64,000 nt of DNA from Methanooceanicella nereidis (lineage in GTDB: Archaea > Halobacteriota > Methanocellia > Methanocellales > Methanocellaceae): assembly GCF_021023085.1 (NCBI RefSeq), contig NZ_PGCK01000006.1:62001-126000 (forward strand). The letters run 5' to 3'. Position 1 is the stretch's first letter. Every line of letters starts with the position of its first letter. Position numbers and translations under genes: made by a program. Below are positions 140 through 55,969 of the stretch, piece by piece. The notes beneath the pieces are model-generated. The model was not told the origin of the DNA. It was given only the letters and a program-made list of their open reading frames with translations, and searched no databases.

Positions 140-664
140 TCGGATGGCAGGTAGATACTAATTTCACAGAGACACAGAACCACTAAAATTTTTTTAGGAT
201 TTTTAAGGGCGCTAAAGCTCTAAGAAGTTACTCACCAAACCACTAATGCTCTAGTATCACAGTCAACGCACTAACGTCCCAAACGCCCGACTCAACGCTC
301 AAAGTGCACAAAGACACTAACGCTAAAACAAGGCCCGAACCTCCCCAAAGCACGAAAATTTAAACCACTGTTTGTGTCGTGCCTTATTGATCATCATTAT
401 ATCCGGTATGTTCGGTCGTGTTAAACGGAAACCGCGCTATTGAACTTTGGTGGTTTGGAGAGGTTCGGGTCTTGTTTTAGCGTTAGTGAATTAGAGAGTT
501 TAGTACGTTGAGTCGGGCGTTTGGGACGTTTGAGCGTTGACGGTGATACTAGAGCATTAGAGATTTCGTGAGTATGTTTTTGGTGCTTTAGAGACCTTAA
601 AAAATCATAAAAAAAATTAGTGGTTCTGTGTTTCTGTGAAATTAGTATCTACCTGCCATCCGAC
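140..664. repeat. Long imperfect palindrome (foldback element), copy 1
   Basis: The left end TCGGATGGCAGGTAG at 140 reappears as its reverse complement near 650-663. Between them the two arms stay complementary over most of about 250 bases each: CACAGAGACACAGAACCAC pairs with GTGGTTCTGTGTTTCTGTG, and the inner AACGCTAAAACAAG pairs with CTTGTTTTAGCGTT. The centre near 370-430 is unpaired. The same design occurs at 39534, 44856 and 55342. No credible reading frame is present. Nothing else was recognised between position 1 and the first gene. It could be a miniature foldback transposon or a structured non-coding RNA; the sequence alone does not decide. Confidence 0.85.
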
Positions 665-892
665 AGGCATAATTAAAAATTCCCAAAATCTAAGAAGAAC
701 CATAAAAATTAAAGAACAATATACTCATTTTCCTGTCGCAGTAAACACCTATTTCACGGAATCAAGATAAGCATACTTTATATAGCCATTTTAACGCGAA
801 GGTTTACTATGTCGCAGTACATATTTTTTTAATAAACAGGCAGTTATATATGAGATGCCAACAATCCTACTAGACATTGATTGGTGAGTTAT

Positions 893-2131
893 ATGGAAGC
901 TATGAGGGAGATTGAGCTAAAGGGTCATATTATCGACTCCTTTTTGCTGCCCAAAGTCTTCGACAAAGTAATGGATATGAACGGCGAGTTCGAGATAATA
1001 CAGTTCGACATCGGCAGGCAAAAGACCGACACGAGCTACGCTCGCCTTATGATAAAAGGAAGAGACCAGGATCACCTGGAGAACATAATAAGCGAACTAC
1101 ACAGGCTCGGGGCCCAGCTCCCGGAAGCCGAGGACGTAGTCACCGAGACCGCTATCAAGGATAGGGTAGTACCGAAAGGTTTCTATTCTACGACCAACCA
1201 TCCGACGTATGTTAAGATAAACGGGGAATGGAAGAAGGTAGAGAACCAGAAAATGGACGCCATGATAGTGATCACGGACGATCATGCCTTATGCACAACA
1301 ATAGGCCATATCAAGAAAGGCGACAGAGTAGTGGTCGGTAAGAAAGGCATACGTGTCATCCCGCCCGAAAGGCCGAGGGGGCACAGCATTTTTGAGTTCA
1401 TGGACAGCCAGGTATCCTCTGAAAGGCCTTCACAGTCACTGATAAAACAGATAGCCGAGGAGATACTGGAAGTAAAACAGGACGGCGGAAAGATCGTAAT
1501 AGTCGCCGGTCCCGCGGTAGTACATACCGGCGGGCAGCAGGCTCTTGCAGAGTTGATCAGGAACGGCTATGTGGACGTCCTGCTCGCAGGCAATGCGCTG
1601 GCAGTGCACGATATCGAGTATAACCTTTACGGCACATCGCTCGGGATGGACCTCAATACGGTAGAACTGGCTCCCGAGGGACATAAGCACCACATATATG
1701 CCATCAGCGAGATCTGCCGCGCAGGCTCTATAAAGGACGCGGTAGAGCAGGGGATCCTTACAGGCGGCATCATGTATGAATGTATCAAGAACAACGTGCC
1801 GTTCGTCCTCGCCGGGTCGATAAGGGACGACGGGCCGTTGCCTGACGTCATCACCGATACCATGAAAGCGCAGGACATGATGAGAAAGGCGATACAGGAC
1901 GCTGACATCGTGCTTATGATGTCTACGATGCTTCATTCGATCGCGACAGGGAACTGCCTGCCGTCGACCGTAAGAACGATCTGCGTGGACATCAATCCGG
2001 CTACCGTCACTAAACTCATGGACCGCGGCAGCGCCCAGGCCATCGGGATAGTCACGGATGTAGGAACGTTCCTGCCATGGCTTGCTGAAGAGCTGGCCCT
2101 GCTTAAAAAGCAAAAAGCCCAGGGCAAATGA
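893..2131 (+). CDS. TIGR00300 family protein (LOR/SDH-type, probable archaeal ornithine cyclodeaminase)
   Basis: The 412-residue protein matches the archaeal TIGR00300 family, named for its lysine-oxoglutarate reductase/saccharopine dehydrogenase-like region. Members of this family, and the C-terminal domain of cyanobacterial AgrE/ArgZ, have been reported to convert ornithine to proline with release of ammonia. The N-terminal part (about 1-100, beginning [12 protein letters not shown]) is the small domain. The C-terminal half carries the Rossmann-like stretch [17 protein letters not shown] and the conserved [21 protein letters not shown] at 893 is chosen over TTG 881 and GTG 884 because GGTGAG lies five bases upstream. 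The gene stands alone and ends in a clear terminator. The family assignment is firm; the exact reaction is inferred from relatives. Confidence 0.85.
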
Positions 2132-2170
2132 GCTATAAGATGGGTGATCCCATCGCTCTTTTTTATTTTT
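2130..2170 (+). terminator. Intrinsic-type terminator after the TIGR00300 gene
   Basis: GATGGG (2139-2144) and CCCATC (2149-2154) form a stem around a TGAT loop. The outer bases GAGC and GCTC can extend it, and a T-rich run follows at 2158-2170. Confidence 0.7.
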
Positions 2171-2264
2171 CAAGCTTTTAAGTAAAATGATAGAATATTT
2201 ATATTATCCGAATTAAAAGAATGAATCCTTTCACCACTATATATTTTTTTAACCTATTTTTTAG

Positions 2265-4160
2265 TTAAACTTTATCGGCCTCTGGCAGGATCACAATAAA
2301 CCTGCTGCCTTTAGAAGGGTGTCCGGGGACCCGGTCCTCCACCCACACTTTCCCTTTAAAACCTTCCACAAGGGTCTTCACAATGTACAGGCCAAGCCCC
2401 TTACCGATCATTTCATGCCCTTTTTCTCCCCGCAAAAATATCTTGTTTTTTTGCCTGTCTGATATACCCGGACCATTATCATCTACGATGACCTTATAAT
2501 AGTCATTCCCCTCAGCATCAGTCTTTTCAAGCATTATGTCTATGACCAAAGGCTTATCCGGATTGGCATGTTTTATCGCGTTCCCCACGAGATTGTTAAA
2601 TATGTCCTTTACAAGTTCACTTGCGTATACATAACTCCCTTTTAAGGGCTTGTAAGTGATATTGATGTCCCTGCCCGGAACGTGTAAATAGTCTTCTTTA
2701 ACCTCTGTCAGTATTTTATCAAGGTCTACACGCTCAAGAGATAGAATATCTGTCTTGATCTGCTTTATCTTGCTAACGTTGCCTATAAGCCTTGAACTGT
2801 TCTTCAGGGTCTCTAACGGCTTTTCAATTAAAAAGCCGTTATCCTGTTCAAGTTTTCCTTCAAGGTCAATGATATCCAGGGATAGTTCAAGGAAACCCAT
2901 TGCTATCTGGTTCATATTGTTTATATCATGGCTCATAAGATCCACGTAAAGATCTGACTGGGCCTTGGCTTCCTCCAGCGCTTTTTCAGCGCATTTACGC
3001 TCATATATCTCGCCGATCAGTTTTGCAGAAGTTTGCAGCCGGTTCCTGGCGATGTCAATTATGAACTTAGGGCGCGACTCATATTCGTCGGCGAGTTTCT
3101 TAAGCTCCATAGCGTTAACATTATATTTTTTAGCTATTTCACCCAATTTTTTAGGGTCTTTTGGCGGGTCGCCATAACCGATGTTTATTGCGCCTACGAT
3201 CTCGTTTCCCGCCCGGATCGGGACACCGTACAGCCTGATGCCCCCGTGACATTCAATATCCACAGGCCTGCCCGTCTCAATGGCCACTTTTGCATTTTCT
3301 GTCCAGCATGATTCATGGCAAAGCCACTTTCCGCGTTCTAGCGCCTCCGTGTTAATATCAGTGTCGCAAAGGTCTCGTGAAGCCTTATCCAGGAACCTGC
3401 ACCAGCCTGAGCAAAATATTCCCTGCGCATAGTCACCGTTCTTTTCATATACTGCCGAAGAAGTATCAAGAAGGTCCAGAAAATCGCTTACGATATCGCT
3501 TAATATTTCTTCGCCAACAGAATCCAGTAGTTTACGACAGGTATTAAGCTCAAGCAGATTTCCGTATGGCGGCTCATACTTGTTCGATCTTTGACTGTTG
3601 ATCTTAGGTTCCACGCTTTTCTTTAATAGCCATTCTAGCCTTTTCAGCTCTTCTTCAGCTTTTTTGCGATCGGTAATATCGCGGATATGCTCGACGACGC
3701 CTACTACATTATCCCCGGTATCGATCAGGGGAAAAGAATGAATTTCAACCCATCCGTCTGTCCTGTCAGGTCGGATATAAGACGCAATGTGTGTCTGGAT
3801 GGTCTTTGTTTTCATGGCTTTAATGCAGGGACAGTTTTCACATGCTTCTTTTTTCCCATGATAAGCTTCAAAACACTTTTTGCCTAAAATAGGCATGCTA
3901 TGAGAGTACAATTCTTCCATTTTAGGATTTATCCTGATGATATTCAAATCCTTATCCAGGATACTGATACCGTCCTGGATACAGTTAAAAACGTTCTGAA
4001 GAAATTGTTCTCTATCATGAAGAGCCTTTTCGGCTTTTTTTCTTTCGATATCGGCTTCCTTAAGTACCGATAACTGCTCATGAAGCATTTTTAGCTCATT
4101 AAGCAAAAGATCTTTAGAACCATTACTATCCGGGCTATCCCCACCTGAACCTGAACACAT
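2265..4160 (-). CDS. PAS-PocR sensor histidine kinase
   Basis: This is a soluble 631-residue sensor kinase with no predicted membrane segment. The order is a short coiled region (about 15-45), a PAS domain (about 45-165, ending in the PAC-like [20 protein letters not shown]), a PocR-type ligand domain (about 200-385, with [20 protein letters not shown] and several cysteines that could bind a ligand or metal), then a kinase core. The phosphoacceptor box [10 protein letters not shown] lies near residue 408, the N-box [10 protein letters not shown] near 520, the G1 box DDNGPGIS near 563 and the G2 box GKGLGLYIV near 588, so the catalytic parts look intact. No response regulator is adjacent, so the partner is unknown. 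PocR domains are known to sense small organic ligands; the ligand here cannot be read. Confidence 0.9.
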
Positions 4161-4287
4161 CGGTCATCGCAGTTTTAGTTGTATATTCTCAATAATATAA
4201 AACGTTGAGGGTAAACATATGACAGGTAATCGCCGTTTGAACGAATATAATAGTTTGTAAAAAAAAGAAAAAAAGGAAAAGGAAGAT

Positions 4288-4386
4288 CTAATCCTTACTT
4301 GTCATGGTCTTGTAGAGGAAGTATGCAGAACCTCCCCACAGGACCGTTGCTCCGAAAAGGAACATTAAAATGGCTGATAGTTCCAT
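4288..4386 (-). CDS. MetS-like small subunit of NSS amino-acid transporter
   Basis: A 32-residue reading frame starts at ATG 4386, 12 bases after the stop of the NSS transporter gene and directly behind a strong AAGGAGGATC ribosome-binding site. The product MELSAILMFLFGATVLWGG continues with AYFLYKTM and ends in a short charged tail, giving a single membrane helix with a Gly-rich middle. This is the form of the methionine/alanine import NSS transporter small subunit family, represented by MetS, which is needed with MetP for methionine uptake in Corynebacterium. It is co-transcribed with the transporter, which it probably stabilises or activates. Confidence 0.85.
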   Translation of the reverse strand: MELSAILMFLFGATVLWGGSAYFLYKTMTSKD

Positions 4387-4398
4387 CTTTGATCCTCC

Positions 4399-5982: not shown

Positions 5983-6027
5983 CTCAAATTTCAACCATAC
6001 AGGGTAATAGCTTACTTGCCATGCCAT

Positions 6028-7488: not shown

Positions 7489-7572
7489 CCATATAGTTCG
7501 TTAGTTTAAAAAACGAAAAACATTTTTTAGACACTAGTCGACTTTGTGTTAAAAAGGTTTTTAATATTGAAC

Positions 7573-13190: not shown

Positions 13191-13307
13191 TTTAGTTATA
13201 GGGCTTGGTATATATAAGCCTTTTAGAGCATGACTTTTTCATAAAGGGATTAGTAAATATTTTTGACTTTTTTACGTTTATGTGGATGATGTTTTTTGTG
13301 TTGTTCC

Positions 13308-13365
13308 TTTCGGATGGCAGTAGATACTAATGTCACAGAAACACAAAAACACTAAAATATTTTCT
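13308..13365. repeat. Solo end of the foldback element family
   Basis: TTTCGGATGGCAG, then TAGATACTAATGTCACAGAA and ACACAAAAACACTAAAAT, match the left end of the palindrome at 140. Even the flanking GATGATGTTTT before it is shared. The opposite arm is absent. It is a remnant or a one-ended copy lying in the divergent promoter region of the next genes. Confidence 0.75.
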
Positions 13366-15673: not shown

Positions 15674-16272
15674 TGCAACAACCACAAAGGACACAAAGGT
15701 CCACTAGCTCTCACCACAAAGTACACGAAGGTTACTAAGGCACACGGTATCTCACCACAAAGTACACAAGGGCAACAAAGGTCCACTAGCTCTCACCACA
15801 AAGTACACGAAGGTTACTAAGACACACGGTATCTCACCACAAAGGACACAAAGGCAACCAGGGAACACAAAAATTTTTTAAAATAGTTAATTCAAATATG
15901 ATGTCGCAATTTTTCCCTTTTTTAATATTATAATTATAACTTGGAGGTATGATCTTAAAGTTATATTAACTCCAATAAGTCTTTCTAAAAATTTTTGTGT
16001 TCCTTGGTTACCCTTGTGTCCTTTGTGGTTAAGCTAGTGTACCTTGATTACCCTTGTGTCCTTTGTGGTTAAGCTAGTGTACCTTGATTACCCTTGTGTC
16101 CTTTGTGGTTAAGCTAGTGTACCTTGATTACCCTTGTGTCCTTTGTGGTTAAGCTAGTGTACCTTGATTACCCTTGTGTCCTTTGTGGTTAAGCTAGTGT
16201 ACCTTGATTACCCTTGTGTCCTTTGTGGTTAAGCTAGTGTACCTTGATTACCCTTGTGTCCTTTGTGGTGAA
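15674..16272. repeat. Foldback element of the CACAAAGGACACAAAGG type
   Basis: Left arm (15674-15882) and right arm (15986-16272) are built from complementary words (CCACAAAGGACACAAAGG against CCTTTGTGG, and GGGAACACAAAAATTTTT against AAAAATTTTTGTGTTCC) around an AT-rich centre. The left arm contains an ~82-bp unit twice (GGTCCACTAGCTCTCACCAC starts each copy). The right arm contains a different 40-bp unit six times. It occupies the whole gap between the convergent lig and pheT genes. Short words of this kind are widespread in prokaryotic genomes. Confidence 0.85.
16021..16260 (+). repeat. Six perfect 40-bp tandem repeats
   Basis: The unit begins CTTTGTGGTTAAGCTAGTGT and continues ACCTTGATTACCCTTGTGTC. 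It is repeated six times without a single difference, which indicates recent expansion. A partial copy precedes it and a truncated one follows. There are no spacers, so it is not a CRISPR array. Confidence 0.95.
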
Positions 16273-26947: not shown

Positions 26948-27295
26948 AAGAGGGTGTTGCGTAATTTGGTGAAAAATATTTGGGGGTATCTTGTCTAGTC
27001 GTTTTTATGACCAATAAAAACCTTTGTCTAGCTTTGCAGATACCCTATTCGTGTTTTGATTGTCATATTAAAATAGTTTCTGACGTGTCTCTTCGTTTGT
27101 TGGAAGCGGTTGATTGTCCTTGTTCAGATTTTTAGAAGAACGCAGCGAAGGGGAAGGCCTTGTTTTCATAATAAATTGGTGTTGATCAAGGCTCTAGTCT
27201 ACAAAGAAATCTCGAGGATAAATAATATTCGGGAGTTGGTAAGAATCCTGAATCTGGATTGGGAAGCCTGGCCATATTGTTTAAAGGAGTCGTGA
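26948..27295 (+). mobile_element. 5' stub of an insertion sequence, plus-strand copy
   Basis: The segment starts near GTGTTGCGTAATTTGGTG and encodes, with frame breaks, the N-terminus of a DDE-type transposase (RRGRPCFHNKLVLIKALVYK, then SRINNIRELVRILNL), similar to the N-terminal domain of IS4/IS5-group transposases. The catalytic part and the 3' end are missing. It matches, in inverse orientation, the stub that occupies 27296-27700. Confidence 0.75.
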
Positions 27296-27700
27296 TCCGG
27301 TCAATGTGTTTGCTTAGTAGTTTTTTGAATTTGCTAAAAGGGCTATAGTCAGGCAAACTGTTAAGACCAAAAATTTTTACAATATTTTTATCACTCCCCA
27401 GGACTTTTACCAGTTGTCTAATACTCCCGATCTTTATCAAATCCCGGTATAATAAAGCCCTGAGCATAGCCACCTTGCTATGAACAGGACGCCTGCCACG
27501 AGAGTTACACTTCTCAAGAAACTTGAAGAAGCCCAATCAACCGCTTCCAACACAGCAATAATAACATCAGAATGTATTTTACACCTGCAATCCAGACAAG
27601 AATAGGGCTTCTGCAAGCCCATAACAACGTTTTTATTGGACATAAAAACGCCTATGGCAAGAAGCCCCAAATACTTTTATCTAATTACGCCACATCCTCT
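27296..27700 (-). mobile_element. 5' stub of the same insertion sequence family, minus-strand copy
   Basis: Read on the minus strand from 27700 it begins GATGTGGCGTAATTAGATAA and continues through sequence clearly related to the plus-strand copy: GTTTTTATGTCCAATAAAAA against GTTTTTATGACCAATAAAAA, and TTGGAAGCGGTTGATTG in both. It encodes a broken transposase N-terminus (GRRPVHSKVAMLRALLYRDL). The two stubs face each other head to head, and both lack their 3' ends. Confidence 0.75.
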
Positions 27701-35414: not shown

Positions 35415-37988
35415 GTGGTTGATTTTAGAAAGTTATTAGGCAAAGAAGTAATTGCACCTGAAACTGAACCAATAAAAATTTTCGAAAAATTAGATAAAGC
35501 AAGCACGGTAGATGGACTAAGGCCTGCACAGCAGCAAATATTGGAAGAATGGGTCAGCAAATATCAAGATAAAAGAGATATCATCGTTAAATTACCCACA
35601 GGATATGGAAAAACCCTTATTGGTCTAATAATATTGCAATCACTTCTAAACCAAAAAAAAGGACCTGCTGTTTATTTATGTCCTACGACATATCTTGTTG
35701 ATCAAACATTAGCACAAGCAGAAACTTTTGGTATAAAAACTACCGAAATTGGCGCTGATAACAGACTGCCCATCGATTTTAAAAATTCGGAAGCAATTTT
35801 AGTCACAACTTGTAGTAAAATGATAAATGGTAAAACCATATTTGGAGTTAGCGGATCTGGCAGAGAAGAAATTGAGATTGGGGCTATTGTTATTGATGAT
35901 GCGCATAAATGTCTTGAGATGATTAGACAATCATATACGATTCATATTAAAAAATATAATAATCCAGAGATTAATCGTATAAATAAGGTTTATTCTGGTT
36001 TAATGGGACTTTTCGAGTCAGCACTTTTTACTCAATCGCCAGGTAAATATGCAGATATTAAAAAGGGTAAAACAGATAGCTTCATGGCCGTTCCGCATTG
36101 GATATGGTCAGATAATATAAAATCAGTTGTTGAACTTTTAAGTACCTATAAAGACGCCTATAAAGATGATGGTAATGAGGAGCATAAAAATTTATTTTTT
36201 ACATGGGATTTAATTAAAGATTGTATAAGAGATTGTACCTGTGTAATTTCTGGCAATGATATCGAAATTTCTCCACGCCTTATACCTATTGCAAAAATTC
36301 CTGCTTTTAAAAATGCAAATAAAAGATTTTTTATGTCGGCTACGCTTACAGAGGATGCATTTTTAGTTAAGGATTTAGGAATTGATCCGGATAGCGTAAA
36401 AAATCCATTAACAGATAATAAATTGACTTATAGTGGGGAAAGATTAGTGCTATTACCCACAAGAATAAATGCTGATTTAGATAAAGAAACATTGATTAGA
36501 TGGGTATCTAATTTAACAAGAGCTAATGGACATTTTGGAACCGTAGCAATCGTACCATCCGGTATAAAAGCTATGAAATGGGAGGAAAAGGGAGCAAAAA
36601 CAACAATTGCGAAGTATTTAACATCGAATGTTAATATTTTAAATGAAGATGTTAAAAAGAAAGTTGCAAAGTATGTGTTAGTTTTGCTAAATGCATATGA
36701 TGGCATAGATTTGGCGGATTCTAAGTGCAGAGTTTTAGTATTGGATTCTCTACCATCTTATGATGCATTAATCGATAGATATACACAATACATACGACCA
36801 AAATCTAAATTTACAAAACGTCTGCTCGCTCAAAGAATTGAACAAGGGATGGGTAGAGCAATTCGTGGTCCAAATGATTGGTGTATACTCATAGTAATAG
36901 GAAACGATATTACTGAATTCTTTTCCGAAAAAAATAAAATAAAATATTTGTCAAATGAAGCTCAAAAACAAATAGAAATTGGAGAACAATTAATATCCAT
37001 AATTAAAGCAGAGGGCGGCACACTTTTAAAAATACAAGAGATTGTACTTCAATCACTGAATAGAGACCCAAGTTTAAAAGAATATTATAAACAACAAATG
37101 AGCCAGATTAACATAAAAGAGTCTGAAAGTAATGAATATCTAAATAACGCTTTAAGCGAAAGAGATGCAGAATTACATTATTTGAATGGTAAAATTAGAA
37201 TTGCGGTTGATATTGTACAAAATCTTCACGACAATTCGGATAACTACGACGATAAAGGCTGGTATTTACAGTTAAAATCCATATATTTATATGAATCAGA
37301 TAAAACGAGAGCTATGGATGCCCAATTAAGAGCTTTTGAGAAAAATAATAATCTTTTTAGACCACCATCCGGTGTAAAATATTCGAAAATATCTAAGGGT
37401 AGGCCAAGGGCCGTCAATATTAAAGAGTTCATTAAAGAACATGATACAATTATTTCGTTAATAATTAATGTTGGAAACATTCTTGACCAAGTTAGTTTTA
37501 GTAATAATAGTGATAACTTTGAAGAAGGTATCAAACAAGTGGGTAGGCTATTAGGTTTTGAGTCTCAAAGACCAGATAAAGAATCAGGTTGCGGACCAGA
37601 TAATCTTTGGCAATTAGATCTTAATCATTATTGGGTTATTGAATGTAAAAATGAAGTAGATGGAAGAGATTTTGTGTCAAAGAACGAAGTTGGACAGATG
37701 CATAATAGTATCTCATGGTTTAAAGTAAACTACGAGGGAAGCAATTTTATTCCTCTTTTTATTCATCCTGCGACATTTATAGATAAGAACACAGAACTAC
37801 TAGATCCTATATATGTTATTGATGAGTCATCGATAGAATCACTAAAGAGGAATATAAGCGGTTTTTATAAATCACTACCGTCACTTGAAGATAAATCGGA
37901 AAAATTCATTCTTGAACGCTTAGTTGAATACAACCTAGATAATAATTCGTTAAATAAGTACTTTACACGTTTAAAACATAAAAAATAA
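35415..37988 (+). CDS. Helicase-nuclease fusion, candidate single-gene defence protein
   Basis: The 857-residue protein combines a superfamily 2 helicase and a nuclease-like tail. Walker A is KLPTGYGKTLIG (near residue 65), Walker B is IDDAH (near 160), motif III MSATLTE (near 307) and motif VI EQGMGRAIRG (near 477). The second helicase domain (VLDSLPSYDALIDRY) recalls XPD/DinG-type helicases. The C-terminal 150 residues hold PDNLWQLDLNHYWVIECKN, a PD...E-x-K arrangement of restriction nucleases (about 728-742). It resembles Hna-like helicase-nuclease phage-defence proteins in architecture, but equivalence is inferred. GTG 35415 is chosen with GGTG seven bases upstream. It is monocistronic in the AT-rich island. 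Confidence 0.8.
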   Translation: MVDFRKLLGKEVIAPETEPIKIFEKLDKASTVDGLRPAQQQILEEWVSKYQDKRDIIVKLPTGYGKTLIGLIILQSLLNQKKGPAVYLCPTTYLVDQTLAQAETFGIKTTEIGADNRLPIDFKNSEAILVTTCSKMINGKTIFGVSGSGREEIEIGAIVIDDAHKCLEMIRQSYTIHIKKYNNPEINRINKVYSGLMGLFESALFTQSPGKYADIKKGKTDSFMAVPHWIWSDNIKSVVELLSTYKDAYKDDGNEEHKNLFFTWDLIKDCIRDCTCVISGNDIEISPRLIPIAKIPAFKNANKRFFMSATLTEDAFLVKDLGIDPDSVKNPLTDNKLTYSGERLVLLPTRINADLDKETLIRWVSNLTRANGHFGTVAIVPSGIKAMKWEEKGAKTTIAKYLTSNVNILNEDVKKKVAKYVLVLLNAYDGIDLADSKCRVLVLDSLPSYDALIDRYTQYIRPKSKFTKRLLAQRIEQGMGRAIRGPNDWCILIVIGNDITEFFSEKNKIKYLSNEAQKQIEIGEQLISIIKAEGGTLLKIQEIVLQSLNRDPSLKEYYKQQMSQINIKESESNEYLNNALSERDAELHYLNGKIRIAVDIVQNLHDNSDNYDDKGWYLQLKSIYLYESDKTRAMDAQLRAFEKNNNLFRPPSGVKYSKISKGRPRAVNIKEFIKEHDTIISLIINVGNILDQVSFSNNSDNFEEGIKQVGRLLGFESQRPDKESGCGPDNLWQLDLNHYWVIECKNEVDGRDFVSKNEVGQMHNSISWFKVNYEGSNFIPLFIHPATFIDKNTELLDPIYVIDESSIESLKRNISGFYKSLPSLEDKSEKFILERLVEYNLDNNSLNKYFTRLKHKK

Positions 37989-39411: not shown

Positions 39412-39533
39412 AATAGCTTTGAAGGAACAATGTCCCAATTTTACTTTTTTATTATTTAATACAGTATAGACAGTACAAATATCCGGCTAAAAATTTTTTT
39501 TATCTTTCTCCAATATTGAGATGATATTTTTAT

Positions 39534-40076
39534 GGTTGTGCCTGACGGATGGCAGGTAGGCACGTAATTTCACAGAAACACAGAACCACAAAAATTTTTA
39601 TACGATTTTTTAAGGACACAAAAAGCACCAAAATCTACTCACCAAACCACGAATACTCAAGTATCACCGTCAACGCACAAACACCTCTAACGCCCGGCTC
39701 AACGCACTAACCTCTCCAAGTCACCAACGCTAAAACAAAGCCCGAGCATTCCCAAAAACACTAAATTTTAACTGCACGGTCGACGCTTACACGATCAATA
39801 TACCTGGTAAGGGATCAGGGATACACAAACTGGGATATTGAACTTTAGTGTTATTAGAGAATGTTCGGGCTTTGTTTTAGCGTTAGTGACTTAGAGCACT
39901 TCGAGCATTAAGCCGTGCATTTGAGACTTTAGTGCGTTGACGGTGATACTGGAGCATTTGTGGTTTTTGTGAGTGAACATTTGAGATTTCGTGACCTTAA
40001 AAAATCATATAAAAAAATTTGTGTTTCTGCGTTTCTGTGAGGTTACGTGCCTACCTGCCATCCGACAGGCACAACC
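39534..40076. repeat. Long imperfect palindrome (foldback element), copy 2
   Basis: The ends GGTTGTGCCTGACGGATGGC and GCCATCCGACAGGCACAACC are inverted repeats differing at one base. The outer bases GTGCCT...AGGCAC also form a short hairpin inside each end. The arms share CACAGAAACACAGAACCAC, AACGCCCGGCTCAACGC and AACGCTAAAACAAAGCCCGA with the other copies. The centre near 39780-39840 is unpaired. It lies between two plus-strand genes. Confidence 0.88.
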
Positions 40077-40265
40077 AAAAAAACATCTTCCGAAAAAACC
40101 GAAGCACATATTTTAATGTTGAGATACAGTACAGGTTACAATTATGCATTTATCGACTAATAGAAACTTATATATTTACTTTTAACTTATAATAAAAACC
40201 TATTACATCACCCTTTAAAATACCAAAACAGATGATGAATACTTAAAATATTGTGGTTTGATATC

Positions 40266-41398: not shown

Positions 41399-44300
41399 AT
41401 TAAAAGATATACTTTAGTATTAACCATATTATTTTTCAGTTGTATCATATTCAGCACACAGGCATTGGCTATGATAGATTATCAATCTCCAAGTACCTAT
41501 ATCGTAAATGATGATATTCGCGGCTGGTATCATGGTTACATAATCCTTCATGCGTTTGATGACACAGGTGTTGCAAATATTACTTATCGTGTCGATTCCG
41601 GGACTGCGACAGTAGTCGCTGGTGATGACGCTACCGTCAGTATGACTGACGGTTATCATACGCTGGAATACTGGAGTATCGATCTGGCCGGACATGAGGA
41701 AACCCACCACAGCGTTAATGTAAGATCCGACAGAACGGACCCGTCTACCAGTATTTCGCCGCCTACGGCCTACGGGTGGTACAAAGGAGAAATAATCCTG
41801 AACGCAACGGACAATTTATCCGGAGTCTATAATATCTCATACAGGATCGATTCAGGAATTACTCGTACGATCTCGGGCAGTTCCGGTCCTGTAAATTACC
41901 CGAAAGATGGTACTTATACGCTGGAATACTGGAGTACCGATATGGCGGGTAATGAGGAGTCCCGAAAAAGCGCAACGATAAAGGTTGATAACACTGCTCC
42001 CGTAACGGATGTTTATAAACCTATTGGTTATAATGGCTGGTTCGTGGACCAGATATACATTTATGCAGATGATAATAGCGGATGCGGTGTGGCAAATATC
42101 TCTTACCGGATCGATAATGGGCCTGTGGTAGTAGTTAATGGTAGCACGGCCATTTTGAATGTGCCTGACGGCATCTACAGCCTGGAATATTGGGGTACGG
42201 ACAAGGTCGGAAATGTAGAATACTCACACGGTGAAACCATAAAGAAGGATACCCAGGACCCGGTAACCTCTTTAGATCCGCCCACGGGAAATGATAGCTG
42301 GTATATTATCCAGCCGAGGTTAAAAGCTTCTGATAACTTATCCGGTATATACAGGCTTTATTACATGATCGATTCAGGTAGCTGGAATTGGACCGGTCCT
42401 ACTATCCGTATTGATGTGCCGGACGGTAGCCATACGCTGAAATACTATAGTGTGGATATAGCAGGTAACAGGGAAGGCACGCATACCGCTGCCTTTAAAC
42501 AAGATCTGAATGAACCGAGGACTACTGCATTATTTTCGGGGACTACTGGCAATAACGGATGGTATACCAGCGATGTTTCCGCAACGCTTACTGCCGATGA
42601 CGGAGGCGGTTCATGGGTCACGAATATAAGCTACTATCTGGACTCTGCGCCCGCTCAGACCGTAAACGGTAACAGAGTCACGGTGGATATAAAAGGAACA
42701 GGAATTCATACTCTGGGCTACTGGAGTAATGATATTGCCGGTAATACTGAATATAAAAACATCTCTACGATAAAAATAGACAATATCGCCCCCACAACTT
42801 CAGTGTCCGCTTCGGACGGCAACAATGGCTGGTATACCGGCCCCGTCATACTAACGGCATCAGATAATGTATCGGGGATCGCGAATATCTCCTACAGGAT
42901 CGATTCCGGGCCGGTAATGAACGTTTCTGCCAGTTCGGCTACTGTTAATGTACCTGACGGTTCTCATACGTTATATTACTGGAGCACTGACATGGCCGGA
43001 AATGTTGAAAGCGAGAAAAGCGTAGCGATAAAAGCAGACCTTAGTGCTCCTGTGACATCCGTTTCCGCTCCGGACGGCAACAATGGCTGGTATACAGGGC
43101 CTCTGACTCTCTCTGCAAATGATACTGTGTCCGGTGTATTGAATTTAACTTACCGGCTCGACTCAGGTTCCCCTATAGAGATCACTGGCAGTTCAGTAAT
43201 ATTAAATTTGCAGGATGGCGCTCACACTCTTGAATACTGGAGCGCTGATAAAGCAGGGAATGTAGAAGTCCATCAAAATAAAGTGGTCAATGTCGATAAG
43301 CGTGCGCCGGTGACCTCTGTCTCAGCTCCTGACGGCGATAATGGCTGGTATATTGGTCCGCTTACCCTGACCGCGTCTGACCATCCAGGTATGGACGGAA
43401 TATTGTATTCGGATGTAGCCAGTATTTTCTATCAGGTGGATTCGGGAGCCGTACAGAGGTATAATGGCAGTTCATTAACTATATCCATCCCTGACGGGAC
43501 ACATACTCTAAGCTATTGGAGTGTGGATAATTCAGGGAATGTTGAGAGTACTATTAACACTACTGTGAAAGTTGATACGGTATTGCCGTCTGTTTTCTGG
43601 GCTGCGAACTCTACCCCTAACGCATACGGATGGTACAATCATGACGTGCTGATCGAGTTTACGCCGGTCGTAGGCATATCGGGCGTCCAATCAATTATTC
43701 CGGGGAGTGAACTGGTATTGACATCATCCTCAAACCCGATAACATGCACGGTCACTGACGGCGCAGGCCGTACGGCGAACGTTACGACTGATGCGATCTA
43801 CATTGACAAGGTCATCCCGACGATAACTGCATTCACGACACCTGCCGATCCAAATACGAATGGCTGGTTCAACACAAGCGTCACCGTCAACTTCACCGCT
43901 ACAAACGGACCTTCCGGCATTGATACCATGATCGGAAATACTACGCTCACGGGTGAAGGGGCCGATCAAAAGGTAACTGGAACCGTAACCAGCAGATCGG
44001 GCAACACAAACAGTACGACGGCCAGTATAAACATTGATATGACGGAGCCCGTAATATCGTGCAGCCTTGAAGGCCATCTATCCGATAAGGGATGGTTCGA
44101 CTCTGACGTTCAGGTCACCCTGACATCGACAGACATATTGTCCGGCGTGAACAAGACTGAGTACAGCATGGACGGCATCAACTGGAATAACTATACGGGA
44201 CCTTTCAAGATCGCATTAGGCAAACAGATGTATGTCTATTACAGGTCAGCCGATAATGCGGGGAATACAGCGACAGGAGAACAATTCATTTTCTTCCCGC

Positions 44301-44554
44301 CGGTCAGTATAAGCATGAGCTTAGTCCAGGGTACAACAGGACCTACAGCTACGCCGACACCAGAGCCGTCGGTAACGGTGTCGCCTGTCCCGACAGCTAC
44401 ACCGTCCCCTGTATCTTCAGTAACGGCTACGCCCTCGCCTGAACCTACAGCGACAGAGCAGGCCGGACCTGTCGATCTGACGATGCTGTCGTTACTGATA
44501 GCGCTGGCAGTTGCCGGACTGGGAGCTGTGTACTTCCTGTTCATGAGAAAGTAA
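41399..44554 (+). CDS. Giant surface protein with 11 Ig-like repeats and C-terminal anchor
   Basis: A protein of about 1051 residues. An N-terminal signal peptide (KRYTLVLTILFFSCIIFSTQ-ALA) is visible only if initiation is taken from ATT at 41399, eight bases after GGGGGG; the first ordinary start, TTG 41465, would remove it. The body contains about 11 copies of an ~87-residue beta-sandwich repeat, each starting near GW(Y/F) and most ending DGxHTLxYWSxDxAGNxE, similar to OmpL47/bacterial Ig-like repeats. The last three copies are more divergent. A Thr-Pro-rich linker and a C-terminal membrane helix followed by FMRK anchor it. It is likely a cell-surface adhesin or sheath-type protein; the exact role is unknown. 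Confidence 0.85.
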   Translation: MKRYTLVLTILFFSCIIFSTQALAMIDYQSPSTYIVNDDIRGWYHGYIILHAFDDTGVANITYRVDSGTATVVAGDDATVSMTDGYHTLEYWSIDLAGHEETHHSVNVRSDRTDPSTSISPPTAYGWYKGEIILNATDNLSGVYNISYRIDSGITRTISGSSGPVNYPKDGTYTLEYWSTDMAGNEESRKSATIKVDNTAPVTDVYKPIGYNGWFVDQIYIYADDNSGCGVANISYRIDNGPVVVVNGSTAILNVPDGIYSLEYWGTDKVGNVEYSHGETIKKDTQDPVTSLDPPTGNDSWYIIQPRLKASDNLSGIYRLYYMIDSGSWNWTGPTIRIDVPDGSHTLKYYSVDIAGNREGTHTAAFKQDLNEPRTTALFSGTTGNNGWYTSDVSATLTADDGGGSWVTNISYYLDSAPAQTVNGNRVTVDIKGTGIHTLGYWSNDIAGNTEYKNISTIKIDNIAPTTSVSASDGNNGWYTGPVILTASDNVSGIANISYRIDSGPVMNVSASSATVNVPDGSHTLYYWSTDMAGNVESEKSVAIKADLSAPVTSVSAPDGNNGWYTGPLTLSANDTVSGVLNLTYRLDSGSPIEITGSSVILNLQDGAHTLEYWSADKAGNVEVHQNKVVNVDKRAPVTSVSAPDGDNGWYIGPLTLTASDHPGMDGILYSDVASIFYQVDSGAVQRYNGSSLTISIPDGTHTLSYWSVDNSGNVESTINTTVKVDTVLPSVFWAANSTPNAYGWYNHDVLIEFTPVVGISGVQSIIPGSELVLTSSSNPITCTVTDGAGRTANVTTDAIYIDKVIPTITAFTTPADPNTNGWFNTSVTVNFTATNGPSGIDTMIGNTTLTGEGADQKVTGTVTSRSGNTNSTTASINIDMTEPVISCSLEGHLSDKGWFDSDVQVTLTSTDILSGVNKTEYSMDGINWNNYTGPFKIALGKQMYVYYRSADNAGNTATGEQFIFFPPVSISMSLVQGTTGPTATPTPEPSVTVSPVPTATPSPVSSVTATPSPEPTATEQAGPVDLTMLSLLIALAVAGLGAVYFLFMRK

Positions 44555-44597: not shown

Positions 44598-44774
44598 CCT
44601 GACTATCTATTCCTATACTGGAGAGTGGCACTATTGTCAGGTCACGTGTTGATGCCGGTAAAGCAGCCTTGAACAGGATAGGTAACTAAATCCAAAGGAA
44701 CATACATCAAAAGAAAAAAGATCATTGAGGCTCAGTAGTTTCGGTGTGTGTATGTACTGGTTGGTTTTTAGTGG

Positions 44775-45476
44775 GTGTTCCCATGAATAACTTTTTGATG
44801 GTCATTGTAAAGACGTGCATGTAATAATCATTATGGGATCGGTGTTCTGCCGTTGTGCCTGTCGGATGGCAGGTAGGCACGTAATTTCACAGAAACACAG
44901 AACCACAAAAATTTTTTATATGATTTTTTAAGGTCACAAAAAACGCTAAAGTTCACTCACTAAACCTCTAAGGCTCCAGTATCACCGTCAACGCTCTAAC
45001 ACCTCTAACGCCCGGCTCAACGCTCGAAGTGCTCTAAGTCACCAACGCTAAAACAAGGCACGAATATTCTCCAAAACACTAAAGTTTAACTGCACGGTTG
45101 ACGCTTAAACGACTATGATATCTGTTATAGGTCAGGTGAACACAGACCGGGATATTATACTTTAGTGGTTTGGGGAATGTTCGGGCTTTGTTTTAGCGTT
45201 AGTGACTTGGAGAGGTTAGTGCGTTGAGCCGGGCGTTAGAGGTGTTTGTGCGTTGACGGTGATACTTGCGTATTCGTGGTTTGGTGAGTAAATTTTTAGC
45301 GTTTTTGTGCCCTTAAAAATCATATAAAAAAATTTGTGTTTCCGTGTTTCTGTGAGGTTACGTGCCTACCTGCCATCCGACAGGCATAGCCACAAAAGCT
45401 TCATATCAGATATCATTGAGTAAGACACGTTTTTTATTCTTAAAACCTGAGTAAGACCCCGCTCATCCAAAATTTT
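44775..45476. repeat. Foldback element copy 3 with shared flanks (~700 bp)
   Basis: The palindrome proper spans about 44856-45386, with arms as in the other copies. In addition, about 80 bases upstream (TCCCATGAATAACTTTTTGA) and about 90 bases downstream (TTCTTAAAACCTGAGTAAGA) match the flanks of the copy at 55342. This copy and the one at 55262-55969 are therefore ~700-bp repeats. It lies between the convergent surface-protein and MFS genes. Confidence 0.85.
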
Positions 45477-47655: not shown

Positions 47656-47670
47656 ACATGTTTGAGATAT

Positions 47671-48632: not shown

Positions 48633-48696
48633 AAATTTTTCAAAAAAACGTTTAAGTATTAATATTTATGACAAATGTGCATCGGGATTATCCTGT

Positions 48697-50447: not shown

Positions 50448-50498
50448 AACAGGGTATTGAGAGAAAAGAGGTTATAAAGCTGATAAATGGAGTAAAAT

Positions 50499-52163: not shown

Positions 52164-52184
52164 AGTGGATAATGATGCATGCTG

Positions 52185-52217
52185 CCGTCGTAGAGACGCA
52201 TGACGTTTCTACGATGG
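52185..52217 (+). terminator. Stem-loop after the acyl-CoA synthetase gene
   Basis: CCGTCGTAGA (52185-52194) pairs with TCTACGATGG (52208-52217) with one G-T pair, around a 13-base loop. No long T run follows directly, so it may be a stability element rather than a terminator. Confidence 0.45.
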
Positions 52218-52444
52218 TTAACCTGTATGTATCCTGGATACCAGACTTTTTTAAGTGTCGATAAATTTTGCTAAAAAACAAATCTTCTCGGGATAATTAA
52301 TAAAGTATTATATCGGATTGTAGGTAAACATTGAATGTGTCTATTATTTTATGATTCATACATGTACATTAAGGCCGTAATGTAGAATTTACATAATAAT
52401 TGTGACATTATCCTCATTAGATAATTTATAACATATTATGTGTT

Positions 52445-52768
52445 TTACCTGATCGGCCATTCGCATATTAGCTTACCGTTAAGTAATTTTTCTAGCGCCA
52501 GGTCAACGTCGCCTTCAACACCCTTGTAGACCATCATACCGTTTCCCAGTAAAGTGTTCAGCGAGTCATCATCTATGTCGTAAGTAATGAGATGCGTTAC
52601 GCCTCGCTCTCGAACGACGTCGGTCGCAGGCCTGCATTCTTCACTTTCATCCTTAAATGTCAGCTTGCCCGCTATCTGGTTGTCCCGGATATAGAAAAGA
52701 ACGAACTCCGATGCCTTGTCGAAGTTTTCTGATATCATATCATTATACTTCGGTATGCAGACCTTCAT
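52445..52768 (-). CDS. MTH1175/NifX-like protein (dinitrogenase Fe-Mo cofactor domain)
   Basis: A 107-residue single-domain protein of the NifB/NifX C-terminal family: MKVCIPKYNDMISENFDKAS, FVLFYIRD and RGVTHLITYDI. Members bind metal-cluster intermediates or regulate them. There is no nif cluster here, so it is one of the orphan copies common in methanogens. A second one is at 60391. ATG 52768 follows GGTGGG. Confidence 0.85.
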   Translation of the reverse strand: MKVCIPKYNDMISENFDKASEFVLFYIRDNQIAGKLTFKDESEECRPATDVVRERGVTHLITYDIDDDSLNTLLGNGMMVYKGVEGDVDLALEKLLNGKLICEWPIR

Positions 52769-53234
52769 AATACCCACCCAATAAAATATTTGGATAATTT
52801 AATAATAATACTTTGGCCCGGATAAGTGGATATGATCAGAATCAATAAATAGATAGATTGAATCATAATGAACATACAGACATCCATGATCGGATTCTGG
52901 AAAGGCCCATTTTCACAGCAATATTACCAGTATAGACTGCCAAAAAATGATTTAAGGTTACATACCACCAATTTTAGAACGTACAATAAGGTCGAATAGA
53001 CCTATTAATTACTATTGGAAAATGACCGCCGCATACAAGATACGCAAAAACACTTTTCTCGACATCATAAAAGAGTTACATCGGCCATCTCTACGGGTAC
53101 TGAACACTGATAAAAGCTTACTATTGGCCTTGCTATAAAATTATTTTAAACCCGGACTTTCAATTTTTTTTAATGATTATTTGATGTTAAAAATAATAAA
53201 TTACTGTACTTTTTATAAAAATGGTGAATGATAA
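52769..53234. other. Intergenic region between NifX-like and FAS1 genes
   Basis: About 465 bases. A small hairpin AGGTC-GAATA-GACCT lies near 52989-53003. A 38-codon frame at 53023 (starting MTAAYKIRKNTFLD) is present but lacks a ribosome-binding site and is not called. TACTTTTTATAAA near 53207 is a TATA candidate for the FAS1 gene. Confidence 0.35.
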
Positions 53235-54323
53235 ATGGCAGATATTAGAAAGATACTGGCAATACTCATATTATTGACACTGATATTTGGGTTTGCTTTA
53301 CCGGTTATTGCCCAGACGTCGGTGCAGAATACTATGCTCGAAAATCTGGCGGCCAATAAAGAATTCTCCACCCTGGCTACAGCCATAAGAGCTGCAGGCC
53401 TGGATAAAGTATTGAGCGGAATGGAATCCTACACATTGTTCGCGCCGAACAATGCCGCGTTCGACAAGTTCCCGAAAGAATCGATCAGCGCCCTGGTAAA
53501 CGATAAAACAAAACTTGGCGAACTGCTGAAGTACCATGTCGTCCCGGGTAAATTGACTTACGCGGACCTCTCAAAAATGACAGAGATCAAGACTGTCGAC
53601 GGAAAGACATTGCCCATAGGCAGGCAGGACGGGATGGTCACTGTCGACGGAACAAAATTAATGGGACCGGGCATTGAAAGCAAGAACGGCATGATATACC
53701 CGATAAGCAACGTGATGACCCCGCCGGGCTTCGCTATGCCGCAGGTCGCAAGGTCCACCGGGATAGAGATGGGATGGCTTCCATGGTTGCTTGGTGCTCT
53801 TGGACTGGGATTGATCGCGCTGTACTTCTTGACCCGTGCCGGAAGAAAGGGTTATGAAGCTCCTGAAGCAGCATATGAAAAAGAGAGAGTAAAGGAGCGT
53901 GTAAAGCCCTGGTCGGAAGAGACGGAGAGAGCTGAAGAAACGATGAAGAGAGTCAAAGAGTCAGTCTCGGCTTACCGCGAGCCTTCGATATCCGATATCA
54001 CTAATATCGCCAGGAACCTCGAATTGCCGCTTGCAGGCGATTCGCTGGCAGGGCTGAATAAGCTCATCAGCAACGGCGTATTCAGCGATAAGCAGGATTT
54101 CCTTAGCTTCCTGGTAAAGAGCTATTTCCAAAACGACGTGGGTTCCATGATGGCAGGCGGTAAAGAGCCGGGCATATCCTCGATAATGGACATCATTGAC
54201 AAGACAGGGATAGCCAGAGGATTTTTGGATAGCGATATTAAGAAATACATAGTGCCGCTTTTAATGGCCGGGTTCACAGCAGTATACAATTACCTCCGGA
54301 AGCCAGCAGTTAAGCCGGCTTAA
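53235..54323 (+). CDS. Fasciclin (FAS1) domain membrane protein
   Basis: The 362-residue protein begins with a signal peptide (ILAILILLTLIFGFALPVIA). A FAS1 domain follows (about 30-160), with YTLFAPNNAAFDKFP and LLKYHVVPGKLTYADL. A membrane helix (WLPWLLGALGLGLIALYFLT) comes next, then a charged segment and a C-terminal helical domain of about 100 residues that would lie in the cytoplasm and ends in KPAVKPA. FAS1 domains act in cell adhesion. The combination with a cytoplasmic domain is unusual and suggests signalling or attachment to an inner component. Confidence 0.85.
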   Translation: MADIRKILAILILLTLIFGFALPVIAQTSVQNTMLENLAANKEFSTLATAIRAAGLDKVLSGMESYTLFAPNNAAFDKFPKESISALVNDKTKLGELLKYHVVPGKLTYADLSKMTEIKTVDGKTLPIGRQDGMVTVDGTKLMGPGIESKNGMIYPISNVMTPPGFAMPQVARSTGIEMGWLPWLLGALGLGLIALYFLTRAGRKGYEAPEAAYEKERVKERVKPWSEETERAEETMKRVKESVSAYREPSISDITNIARNLELPLAGDSLAGLNKLISNGVFSDKQDFLSFLVKSYFQNDVGSMMAGGKEPGISSIMDIIDKTGIARGFLDSDIKKYIVPLLMAGFTAVYNYLRKPAVKPA

Positions 54324-54542
54324 AATTTTTTTTCATTATTTTTTATTACCATGACAATATCCTGTACTCATTCTACCCGGATGTCAAAAAGATAACAGGC
54401 GCTTGCCATGCATAGAATCAATCCCTGCTGGATCATGCTGTCAAGTTCAGCCTGTGATGATGGGCTGCTTTTGGAATATATGATAAATGCTTGCCTTTTT
54501 ACCAGTTAAATTATTATAGGTATACAAAAATCAAATATATTT

Positions 54543-55112
54543 ATGACAGATGTGCTGGTCTTACTGGAAAAAGGAGATATGTTCGGCCCGGTATTGCGCA
54601 GTTATGGCTATAACAGCCAGCCTATCGTTCCCAATGCTTTCGGGTCTCAGTTCTGCCCTCCGGTAAAACTACTGATCGTTCCGGCAGGGTTCCCTCGTCC
54701 GAATTTTTACTCTTTTCTCCGATCCACACTTGAACGTAACAAAGACAGGATCGACAATTTTGTAAGGAATGGTGGAATAGTGTTTTCATACGGAGCGCTC
54801 ATGGAAGAATATACCTATGACTGGCTTCCGGTGAACGTCAAATATTGTTCCGACCCTAAAAAACAGAGCGTTAAGACCATAAATGTGGACAGCCCCGCAG
54901 CTATGATATTTGAGCAGGGGGTGCAGGGATGTGACGGATACCTGAAGGAATTTGACGGCGAGAAAATAATGGCCTCTGAAGACGATAAAGCGGTCCTGGT
55001 CCATAAACAATTGGGAGACGGGCATATCATAGTTTCGGGGATGTACGATTTTCCCGGAAAAAGGTTCATCGACTGGGCTTGTTCGCCTGATAGAAAGCCG
55101 GTTAAGATATGA
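54543..55112 (+). CDS. Conserved hypothetical protein, possible glutamine-amidotransferase-like fold
   Basis: The product has 189 residues. It has the layout of a class I glutamine-amidotransferase-like or ThuA-like fold: VKLLIVPAGFP, then NFVRNGGIVFSYGA, then GDGHIIVSGMYDFPGKRF. A canonical nucleophile cysteine is not evident, so it is probably a non-enzymatic member. It is monocistronic and convergent with the CDGSH gene across a foldback repeat. Confidence 0.65.
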   Translation: MTDVLVLLEKGDMFGPVLRSYGYNSQPIVPNAFGSQFCPPVKLLIVPAGFPRPNFYSFLRSTLERNKDRIDNFVRNGGIVFSYGALMEEYTYDWLPVNVKYCSDPKKQSVKTINVDSPAAMIFEQGVQGCDGYLKEFDGEKIMASEDDKAVLVHKQLGDGHIIVSGMYDFPGKRFIDWACSPDRKPVKI

Positions 55113-55261
55113 TGTTCTTTTTTGTGTTCATCAGAGCTTATACTTTTAAAGAACTTAAACATTAATATATTGATTTTTTATTTTTGAGCGTATTTAGGGA
55201 TTTTTTAAAAGTATGATCATCTTCAAAAGAAATCCTTAATGTACCTGACTCGCCTTTGTGC

Positions 55262-55969
55262 GCTCCCATGAAAAACTTTTGATGGTCTCTGTAAAAATGG
55301 GCATATAACATCAGTTCTGAGATCGATGTTCTGGCATTGTGCCTGTCGGATAGCAGGTAGACACATAACCTCACAGAAACACAGAAACACAAAAATTTTT
55401 TAAATGATTTTTTAAGGGCACAAAAACCCAAAGGTTCACTCACCAAACCTCTAAGGCTCTAGCATCACCGTCAATGCACAAACACCTCTAACGCCCGGCT
55501 CAACGCTCAAAAACACGAAATCACCAACGCTAAAACAAGGCCCGAACAATTCTCCAAGGGCACGAAAGTTTAACTGCACGGTTGACGTTTCACGATCGAT
55601 ATAATTCTTGATGGATCATGGGGGTACACAAACCGGGATATTAAATTTTAGTGTTATTGGAGAATGTTCGGGCCTTGTTTTAGCGTTGGTGAATTAGAGA
55701 GGTTAGTGCGTTGAGCCGAGCGTTAGGGATGTTAGTGCGTTGACGGTGATACTAGAGCCCTTCGTGATTTAGTGAGTAAGATTTTGGGGTCTTTGAGCCC
55801 TTAAAAAATCATAAAAAAATTTTGTGTTTCTGTGTTTCTGTGAGGTTATGTGTCTACCTGCCATCCGACAGGAACTACCTAAAAAAACTTCATCTCAAAG
55901 ACCGGGTAAGTACGACACGTTCTTTCATTCTTAAAACCTGAGCAAGACCCCGCTCATCAAAGATTTCGT
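55262..55969. repeat. Foldback element copy 4 with shared flanks (~700 bp)
   Basis: The palindrome proper spans about 55342-55872 and begins CCTGTCGGATAGCAGGTAG. It has the same arms as the other copies (AACGCCCGGCTCAACGC and AACGCTAAAACAAGGCCCGA). The flanks CTCCCATGAAAAACTTTTGA upstream and TTCTTAAAACCTGAGCAAGA downstream are shared with the copy at 44775. It lies between convergent genes. Confidence 0.85.

Follow-up and report, generated by a model that had tools for sequence, protein, structure and literature searches.

The foldback elements of Methanooceanicella nereidis were found to belong to a family of about 80 copies in the 3.19-Mb genome, three of which hold a GxxExxY gene between the same arms. 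The explanation favoured here, to which we give a probability of about two in three, derives the 530-bp foldbacks, as gene-less (MITE-like) forms, from a mobile element with GxxExxY as its single gene, whose protein would bind and cut the arrays of the arms and thereby move the element. Foldbacks, gene and the inverted arrays of a related short motif around GxxExxY genes elsewhere together suggest a little-known kind of mobile DNA, its mobility and the action of its enzyme being predicted from sequence.

A repeat search of the window, i.e. the whole 64-kb stretch of DNA that was analysed, detected inverted repeats at the positions of the four copies of about 530 bp reported in the preliminary description. 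The features located in the window were the following:

~99-701 including extended termini (core 131-672): foldback copy 1, without the A/B outer flanks
13280..13363, + strand: decayed fragment of the 530-bp foldback family, with a terminus and the first ~55 bases of one arm (64-base match at 13300-13363)
15683..15870, + strand: left inverted array of a type-2 gene-less foldback, CACAAAGG-type, 41-bp units
15990..16270, - strand: right inverted array of the type-2 gene-less foldback, 40-bp units, CCTTTGTGG on the + strand
39517..40090 (core 39534-40076): foldback copy 2, between co-oriented ORFs, without the A/B outer flanks
44770..44851 (borders approximate): outer flank type B of copy 3, one half of a type-2 element centre
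44845..45397 (core 44852-45386): foldback copy 3, between convergent ORFs
45387..45470 (borders approximate): outer flank type A of copy 3
55265..55336 (borders approximate): outer flank type B of copy 4
55337..55879: foldback copy 4, between convergent ORFs, with a 99% identical twin at C2:229622-230154
55880..55985 (borders approximate): outer flank type A of copy 4

The inverted-repeat arms were 123-363/440-680 in copy 1, 39520-39623/39987-40090 and 39644-39756/39854-39966 in copy 2, and 44925-45098/45146-45319 and 44845-44916/45326-45397 in copy 3; in copy 4 the search joined just the 64-base outer pair 55339-55402/55812-55875 (95%), and the remainder pairs in the fold. The positions first assigned to the copies were retained and their termini were revised, as complementarity reaches further out, in copy 1 to ~99-701, where the ends read from the sequence are GGTTCTAC and GAAGAACC. 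The copies are related in sequence, which accounts for the direct repeat families D2, D3, D5 and D6 and for most inverted pairs. They form a single dispersed family of foldback design that carries no gene inside the four window copies, and the gene contexts described earlier (convergent, co-oriented, before the first gene) agree with the ORF list. The inverted pair I7 in the window is a separate feature. No GxxExxY gene was found in the 64-kb window.

The count of four copies is correct for the window, but the whole-genome search placed the family far above that number. The end motif, with up to two mismatches, had 83 + 86 matches in the genome compared to 1 + 0 for a reversed-pattern control, and the arm profile search of the genome scored at least 150 arms. 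A homologous set occurs in Methanocella paludicola, where 85 arms matched the arm profile, while two genomes from another genus of the host family gave just two weak matches each. The copies are intergenic, frequently lie between convergent genes and avoid divergent gene intervals (3/54, versus 12/42 window ORF pairs, p 0.0035).

The analysis of 67 copies (134 arms, 234 columns) revealed that arm conservation is bimodal, with 136 of the 234 columns at least 97% identical and 67 below 85%, and that its pattern matches a recurring CNCNAA motif, which reads TTNGNG in the opposite arm. Conservation of at least 97% was reached by 89% of the motif-specified positions, 21% of the motif N positions and 52% of all others. 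Each arm comprises approximately 15 degenerate C-N-C-N-A-A copies, often 8-10 bases apart and directed toward the centre, and an alignment of 53 arms, 32 of the 134 of the M. nereidis genome and 21 of a second genus, had 50 invariant columns. Mean arm identity was 85% despite the near-invariant motif positions. The arms of the same element agreed at variable columns in 53.5% of cases versus 52.9 ± 1.0% for permuted pairs, so that no arm-arm covariation was present within elements at variable sites (permutation p = 0.25); mismatch types between arms were equally frequent (GU 510, AC 507), and arm identity was 0.857 within and 0.848-0.852 between elements. The association of variable sites fell off with distance along the arms, suggesting that the copies exchange sequence and do not evolve in isolation. 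In accordance with the hairpin potential noticed earlier, the RNA folds of copies 4 and 1 both had energies near -330 kcal/mol, with z scores of -24 and -31, respectively, versus 20 shuffles. Strong hairpins do form in the folded copies, yet pairing is not the conserved property, and the emphasis placed on the hairpin was abandoned, there being neither pairing covariation nor an RNA-strand bias. The most plausible reading of the palindrome is a pair of inverted arrays of a putative binding motif.

In three copies of the family, one of them with an intact gene, the arms enclose a centre of about 560 bp that contains the GxxExxY gene:

C5:171063-171952: gene-bearing foldback
C5:178691-179571: gene-bearing foldback
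C2:45512-46389: gene-bearing foldback

By the terms of the preliminary description, its interpretation would be refuted if copies elsewhere enclosed an open reading frame for a transposase; the gene found comes close to this but is no known transposase. It is a clear member of TIGR04256 (E 4.7e-36) and PF13366 (E 2.6e-34), of the PD-(D/E)XK superfamily, and the intact L138 gene, which encodes a protein of 136 aa, scored 123.7 bits against a curated TIGR04256 cut-off of 35. These were the only families matched by the central gene, and no DDE, HUH, serine or tyrosine transposase was found between the arms of the three gene-bearing copies. Across an alignment of 24 GxxExxY proteins, D79 and K91 were invariant and E89 near-invariant, and these residues, of the D...ExK type of PD-(D/E)XK enzymes, are probably catalytic. 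The only solved structure matched by sequence was 3cae 'Endonuclease I' of phage T7, and this match was not significant (E 0.86). Assignment as a defence gene was rejected (0 PADLOC families for the L138 protein), as was that as a phage gene (0 PHROGs for two proteins, and no match of the L185 protein in the phage collection); two single-protein scans of viral contigs returned no relative. The literature passages found under the GxxExxY name concern one gene beside a reverse transcriptase and one entry in a virus gene list, and flanking inverted arrays are not mentioned in them; nor did the passages searched contain a published name for the foldback element. Only one intact gene with these exact arms was found, arms of the 530-bp family type occurred at none of the six GxxExxY loci of M. 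paludicola, and most gene-bearing loci of the host's family have other arms.

An inverted-repeat score of at least 19, a threshold picked after inspection of the data, was obtained at 34 of the 47 archaeal GxxExxY loci examined, not all of which are independent (14/16 in the host's family and 20/31 elsewhere in the phylum), compared to 2/25 window genes and 0/27 M. paludicola intervals as controls. This count excludes the weak or partial matches L157, L161, L162, L170-L178 and L180-L183, retains L169, which is broken but over the cut-off, and includes as positive L193, for which one shuffle exceeded its own score. The arms of the flanked loci are mostly locus-specific CRCNRAN heptamers, a motif defined after inspection of the arms; the arm pair of L150 departs from it, and that of L208 contains no match. 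The CRCNRA count was 10.3 in the convergent and 4.9 in the divergent orientation, compared to 2.5 and 2.0, and 4.6 and 4.0, in two controls; the convergent count exceeded the divergent one at 34 loci and fell below it at 9 (p 4e-7). Of nine bacterial plasmid loci, four lie between inverted repeats, and the six plasmid loci in the wider count showed weak convergence (8.0 versus 6.7); a clear inverted pair is missing at 13/47 archaeal and 5/9 plasmid loci. Arm 5-mer content tracked protein distance among 23 deduplicated loci (r 0.22, p 0.002), a set that omits L199 and L219 (stop in the reading frame) and loci scoring below 19. At the level of sequence statistics, GxxExxY genes are linked to inverted CRCNRAN arrays. 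In M. paludicola, a 644-bp arm-gene-arm unit (98.6%) is present at two loci and units of 764-790 bp (90-95.5%) at three; the borders of these units coincide with the arm ends or lie close to them. The TIGR02436 four-helix-bundle genes, meant as a control, became partly a second array-flanked case: 14/29 loci (of 30, those with sufficient flank) lie between inverted arrays of other motifs, and such genes in the same phylum showed no CRCNRA convergence (3.2 versus 4.8).

The 530-bp foldback is itself nested inside a second, type-2 array family, whose array at 15683..15870 has the motif kind of the arms of GxxExxY loci L146 and L149. No exact pre-insertion site was found among the candidates L213-L217: in L213 the foldback seems to have been deleted between CCTG repeats, L214-L216 represent type-2 elements that lack the foldback but have different centres, and L217 retains just the first part of one arm, so that none is a clean empty site.

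According to the favoured explanation, the parent element would have the layout arm - GxxExxY gene - inverted arm. The protein, a predicted PD-(D/E)XK nuclease, would most likely bind the arrays on both arms and bring these into contact, perhaps by way of a loop or cruciform extrusion; it would also cut the DNA, whereupon the unit would be copied or moved via repair and recombination. Such action would take place in cis on gene-bearing copies and in trans on gene-less ones.

The near-invariance of the old, diverged gene-less copies exceeds the expectation for a dead MITE and counts against this explanation. A rival explanation is that of host-functional architectural sites, in which the arrays would be maintained by selection at each locus as binding sites of a chromosomal protein (at a domain boundary, or for condensin-like loading or for segregation), the nuclease gene being a former or occasional passenger. 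The diverged arms with near-invariant motif positions, the avoidance of divergent intervals, the arm skeleton preserved in two genera and the other arms of most gene-bearing loci in the host's family all agree with such sites. We nevertheless consider them unlikely: the two weak arm matches per genome in another genus indicate that members of the family can do without the sites, units with the gene are found repeatedly at scattered places, and the decay of variable-site association suggests exchange between copies.

Somewhat less likely still is that another transposase moves the foldbacks, as a MITE or tandem-array family of their own, and that GxxExxY genes merely insert into such arrays or are captured by them. 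GxxExxY is not a known transposase, the foldback is nested in another array family, and the TIGR02436 genes between inverted arrays indicate that arrays may be a general landing place; however, each protein family has its own class of motif, which changes along with GxxExxY sequence, the gene is central between convergent arrays, and arms and gene recur as one unit. A structured RNA, in which transcribed copies would act as long hairpins (processing, termination or dsRNA), is very improbable. The stable predicted folds and the intergenic, often convergent location of the copies would suit it, but covariation between arms is absent, GU is not in excess of AC, arms of different elements match nearly as well as those of the same element, and no Rfam family matched at the gathering threshold in the window apart from one tRNA. 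A selected RNA hairpin was rejected on the covariation and mismatch data, and membership of a known RNA family on the Rfam search.

Low-complexity intergenic repeats of the CACAGAG/CGCAGAG/CACAAAG kind are widespread. We tentatively propose, as a possibility somewhat short of even odds, that a widespread but undescribed class of mobile elements in prokaryotes has GxxExxY proteins as its enzymes, PD-(D/E)XK nucleases that read inverted CRCNRAN arrays, that these repeats are their footprints, and that TIGR02436, with mostly TAG-type arrays, represents a parallel second class. The analysis ties an uncharacterised nuclease-like family, found here in archaea and bacterial plasmids, to a concrete candidate DNA partner, and a possible origin is offered for the short CACAGAG/CGCAGAG-type repeats of prokaryotic genomes. 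The approximately 80 palindromes in one chromosome provide a natural system in which arm sequence is conserved and pairing is not, so that the purpose of long prokaryotic palindromes becomes a question of binding and cleavage by one small protein.

Comparison with known systems showed partial likenesses. Like prokaryotic MITEs, the 530-bp foldbacks are short, gene-less and dispersed in many copies, with terminal inverted repeats, and probably derive from a gene-bearing form, here represented by the three copies with the same termini and a central gene. Unlike MITEs, they have no recognised transposase parent, and their arms fill nearly the whole element. Inspection by eye of the element ends at L158/L160, at L148/L155/L152 and in several solo copies revealed no clear target-site duplication. 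Drosophila foldback (FB) elements share the very long inverted termini of short repeats and the variable centre, a comparison of architecture only, as they are eukaryotic with different repeats and are not known to be homologous to the foldbacks. The 23S rRNA intervening sequence with an S23/four-helix-bundle ORF forms a hairpin. It is a selfish element with one small ORF (PMC4990558), which resembles the foldback, but it sits in rRNA and encodes another protein family. A close parallel is REP/BIME with RAYT (TnpA-REP), where many gene-less intergenic palindromes accompany few loci with a small gene between the same repeats. RAYT is a HUH Y1 transposase, while the foldback gene encodes a PD-(D/E)XK-superfamily protein. 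Repeat and protein diversify together in REP/RAYT (PMC2817692, PMC3686654, PMC8266576), and REPs measure 20-40 bp (PMC3733652), whereas each arm here is an array about 30 to 250 bp long. The best reading of this comparison is that the foldbacks would follow a logic resembling that of REP/RAYT, but with another enzyme.

The four foldbacks of the window were borne out by repeat search as real inverted repeats, and of the long hairpins envisaged in the preliminary description 2 of 4 were folded, with z scores of -24 and -31. In the source genome (3.19 Mb in 41 contigs, the window being C6:62001-126000), a 15-base end motif with up to 2 mismatches gave 83 + 86 matches as compared to 1 + 0 for the control, thus indicating about 80-85 foldback copies. 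An arm profile search without the structure term revealed at least 150 arms in this genome and 85 in M. paludicola; two further family members yielded 2 weak arms apiece. Copy 4 as query had no match in 37 genomes outside the family. After merging of near-identical pieces, 72 distinct foldback pieces were extracted; the analysis used 67 near-full copies, including the four of the window. Contigs C2, C3, C5, C6, C7, C10, C13, C15, C18, and C19 each carry a foldback copy or end no further than a few hundred bases from a contig end, so that the assembly is probably often broken near this family. Five foldbacks, two of them gene-bearing, are clustered 3 to 4.5 kb apart at C5:167595-182127.

The context of 63 copies, determined with a crude ORF finder, was co-oriented in 28, convergent in 23 and divergent in 3, while 2 overlapped a long ORF and 7 received no call; on these crude ORFs, divergent intervals were rarer for foldbacks than among ORF pairs of the window (3/54 as compared to 12/42, p = 0.0035). 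Elsewhere in the window, the stretch at 26972-27678 is probably a decayed insertion sequence, in which an ORF of 116 aa carrying a DUF772 transposase domain is enclosed by inverted 165-base arms (72% complementary). A 1029-aa ORF (41465-44554) with repeats of about 86 aa (258 bases) and Ig-like (Big_13) matches lies directly before copy 3. A DEAD/Helicase_C_2 protein is encoded at 35415-37988, and its sole relative in the genome-contig scan was 31% identical, on an uncultured Clostridia contig.

The foldback arms are motif arrays. In the alignment of 134 arms, 136 of the 234 columns were at least 97% identical and 67 were under 85%; C.C.AA recurs frequently in the conserved skeleton, often at spacings of 8-10 bases. 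The specified positions of this motif, which was picked after the arms had been seen, were conserved at 0.97 or above in 89% of cases, as compared to 21% for its two N positions and 52% for the remaining arm positions. The elements of M. paludicola are about 500 bp long and differ in terminal sequence from the window-genome family; over 53 arms (32 from the window genome and 21 from M. paludicola), 50 invariant columns were common to both.

In three foldback copies the profiled arms stand about 560 bases apart, as compared to the usual 70 or so. The minus strand of this centre codes for a predicted nuclease of the GxxExxY family (TIGR04256, E = 4.7e-36; PF13366, E = 2.6e-34; profile searches). 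In an alignment of 24 GxxExxY proteins, most or all members retain D79, E89, and K91.

Gene-bearing foldback copies and a gene-less foldback of the second array family
L138:886-1296 (contig C5), minus strand: intact GxxExxY gene, 136 aa
Contig C2: GxxExxY profile match in a single open frame of 120 codons; from the first ATG only 91 aa
C5:171271-171608: broken GxxExxY copy, match in two pieces with a stop
Window 15683-16270: gene-less second-family foldback, two inverted CACAAAGG-type arrays of 40/41-bp units

When the arm profile was searched at 16 GxxExxY loci of the family, foldback-type arms were present only at L138 and the C2 copy; those of the broken copy, which is outside this set, were found in other searches.

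Judged from sequence, the link between GxxExxY genes and inverted arrays is general. When the two 500-base flanks of each gene were compared for their best inverted match, the score was at least 19 in 34 of 47 archaeal loci (14/16 in the family and 20/31 elsewhere in the phylum), a threshold set after the data were seen and with L193 counted as positive though one shuffle exceeded its score, as compared to 2 of 25 window genes and 0 of 27 M. paludicola intervals. The arms mostly consist of arrayed copies of a heptamer that is specific to the locus (CGCGAAG, CGCCAAG, CGCAGAG, CACAGAT, CGCGAAT, CACGGAA, CACAAAG); L150 (CGCGACG) deviates from the general form and L208 has none. Motif counts were 10.3 in convergent and 4.9 in divergent orientation, the convergent count being higher in 34 loci and lower in 9 (p = 4e-7), and arm 5-mer content co-varied with GxxExxY protein distance (r = 0.22, p = 0.002, 23 deduplicated loci). 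On bacterial plasmids, an inverted pair adjoins the gene in 4 of 9 loci (Sphingomonas, Bacteroides, Bernardetia, and one of Gemmatirosa), with 0 of 500 shuffles as good; no clear pair was seen in the other five (Fusobacteria, the second Gemmatirosa, Treponema, Prevotella, and Persicobacter). The Sphingomonas gene (L184, 1516-1944) has fabD and fabG as its neighbours, and inverted repeats of the CGCGAAG type lie at both its start and end. Four-helix-bundle genes (TIGR02436) of the same phylum, used as control, showed no CRCNRA convergence (convergent 3.2, divergent 4.8), and in 14 of 29 such loci a score of at least 19 was reached by inverted arrays whose motifs are different, for the most part TAG-type (e.g., TTTAGCGG, AATAGCC, CTAAGGG); L225, L227, L228, L230, L231, L234, L238, and L245 lie between such arrays.

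Separate loci of M. paludicola share arm-gene-arm units, one of 644 bp (L158/L160, 98.6% identical) and one of 764-790 bp (L148/L155/L152, 90-95.5%), which may be taken as signs of movement. The shared DNA ends with the arms at L155/L152, continues about 12 bases beyond one arm at L158/L160 and falls short of one arm end at L148; no target-site duplication was recognised at the borders of these units or of the solo copies inspected. In the window genome, 42 of 67 copies were bordered by flank A at one end and by flank B at the opposite end, 2 had A at both ends, 4 had one recognisable flank and 19 neither. Flanks A and B are the halves of the second array family, with outer CACAAAGG arrays, and one foldback family is therefore nested in another. 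The second family also occurs without the foldback (L214-L216), its arrays at window 15683-16270 being separated by about 120 bases that hold no gene, and arms of this CACAAAGG kind occur at the GxxExxY loci L146 and L149. Relative to A and B, the foldback centre occurs in both orientations (26 and 16), the outcome expected of inversion between the arms. At L213 only fused termini are left, as would be expected had the DNA between CCTG repeats been deleted.

Selection for a hairpin should make variable sites match more within an element than between strangers. The match was 53.5% for arms of the same element and 52.9 +/- 1.0% for strangers (p = 0.25), with arm identities of 0.857 within and 0.848-0.852 between elements, and arm-arm pairing is therefore not conserved for itself. 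Mismatches were GU in 510 cases and AC in 507, numbers expected to be unequal if a particular RNA strand were important, and a selected hairpin was rejected on these two grounds. The association between variable arm sites decays with distance, consistent with exchange between copies. The strict retention of the motif in diverged gene-less copies needs either repeated mobilisation with exchange among them or a host function. Most likely, the GxxExxY nuclease would bind the arrays on both arms and cut the arm-bounded unit, which repair or recombination would then copy.

Within the literature naming GxxExxY that was open to search, most subscription papers falling outside it, flanking arrays are not described, and the main text of the M. 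paludicola genome paper uses "repeat" once, concerning the replication origin (PMC3146512). In the PDB sequence search, the sole hint for GxxExxY was 3cae, "Endonuclease I", at a non-significant E value of 0.86. Endonuclease I is the junction-resolving enzyme of phage T7.
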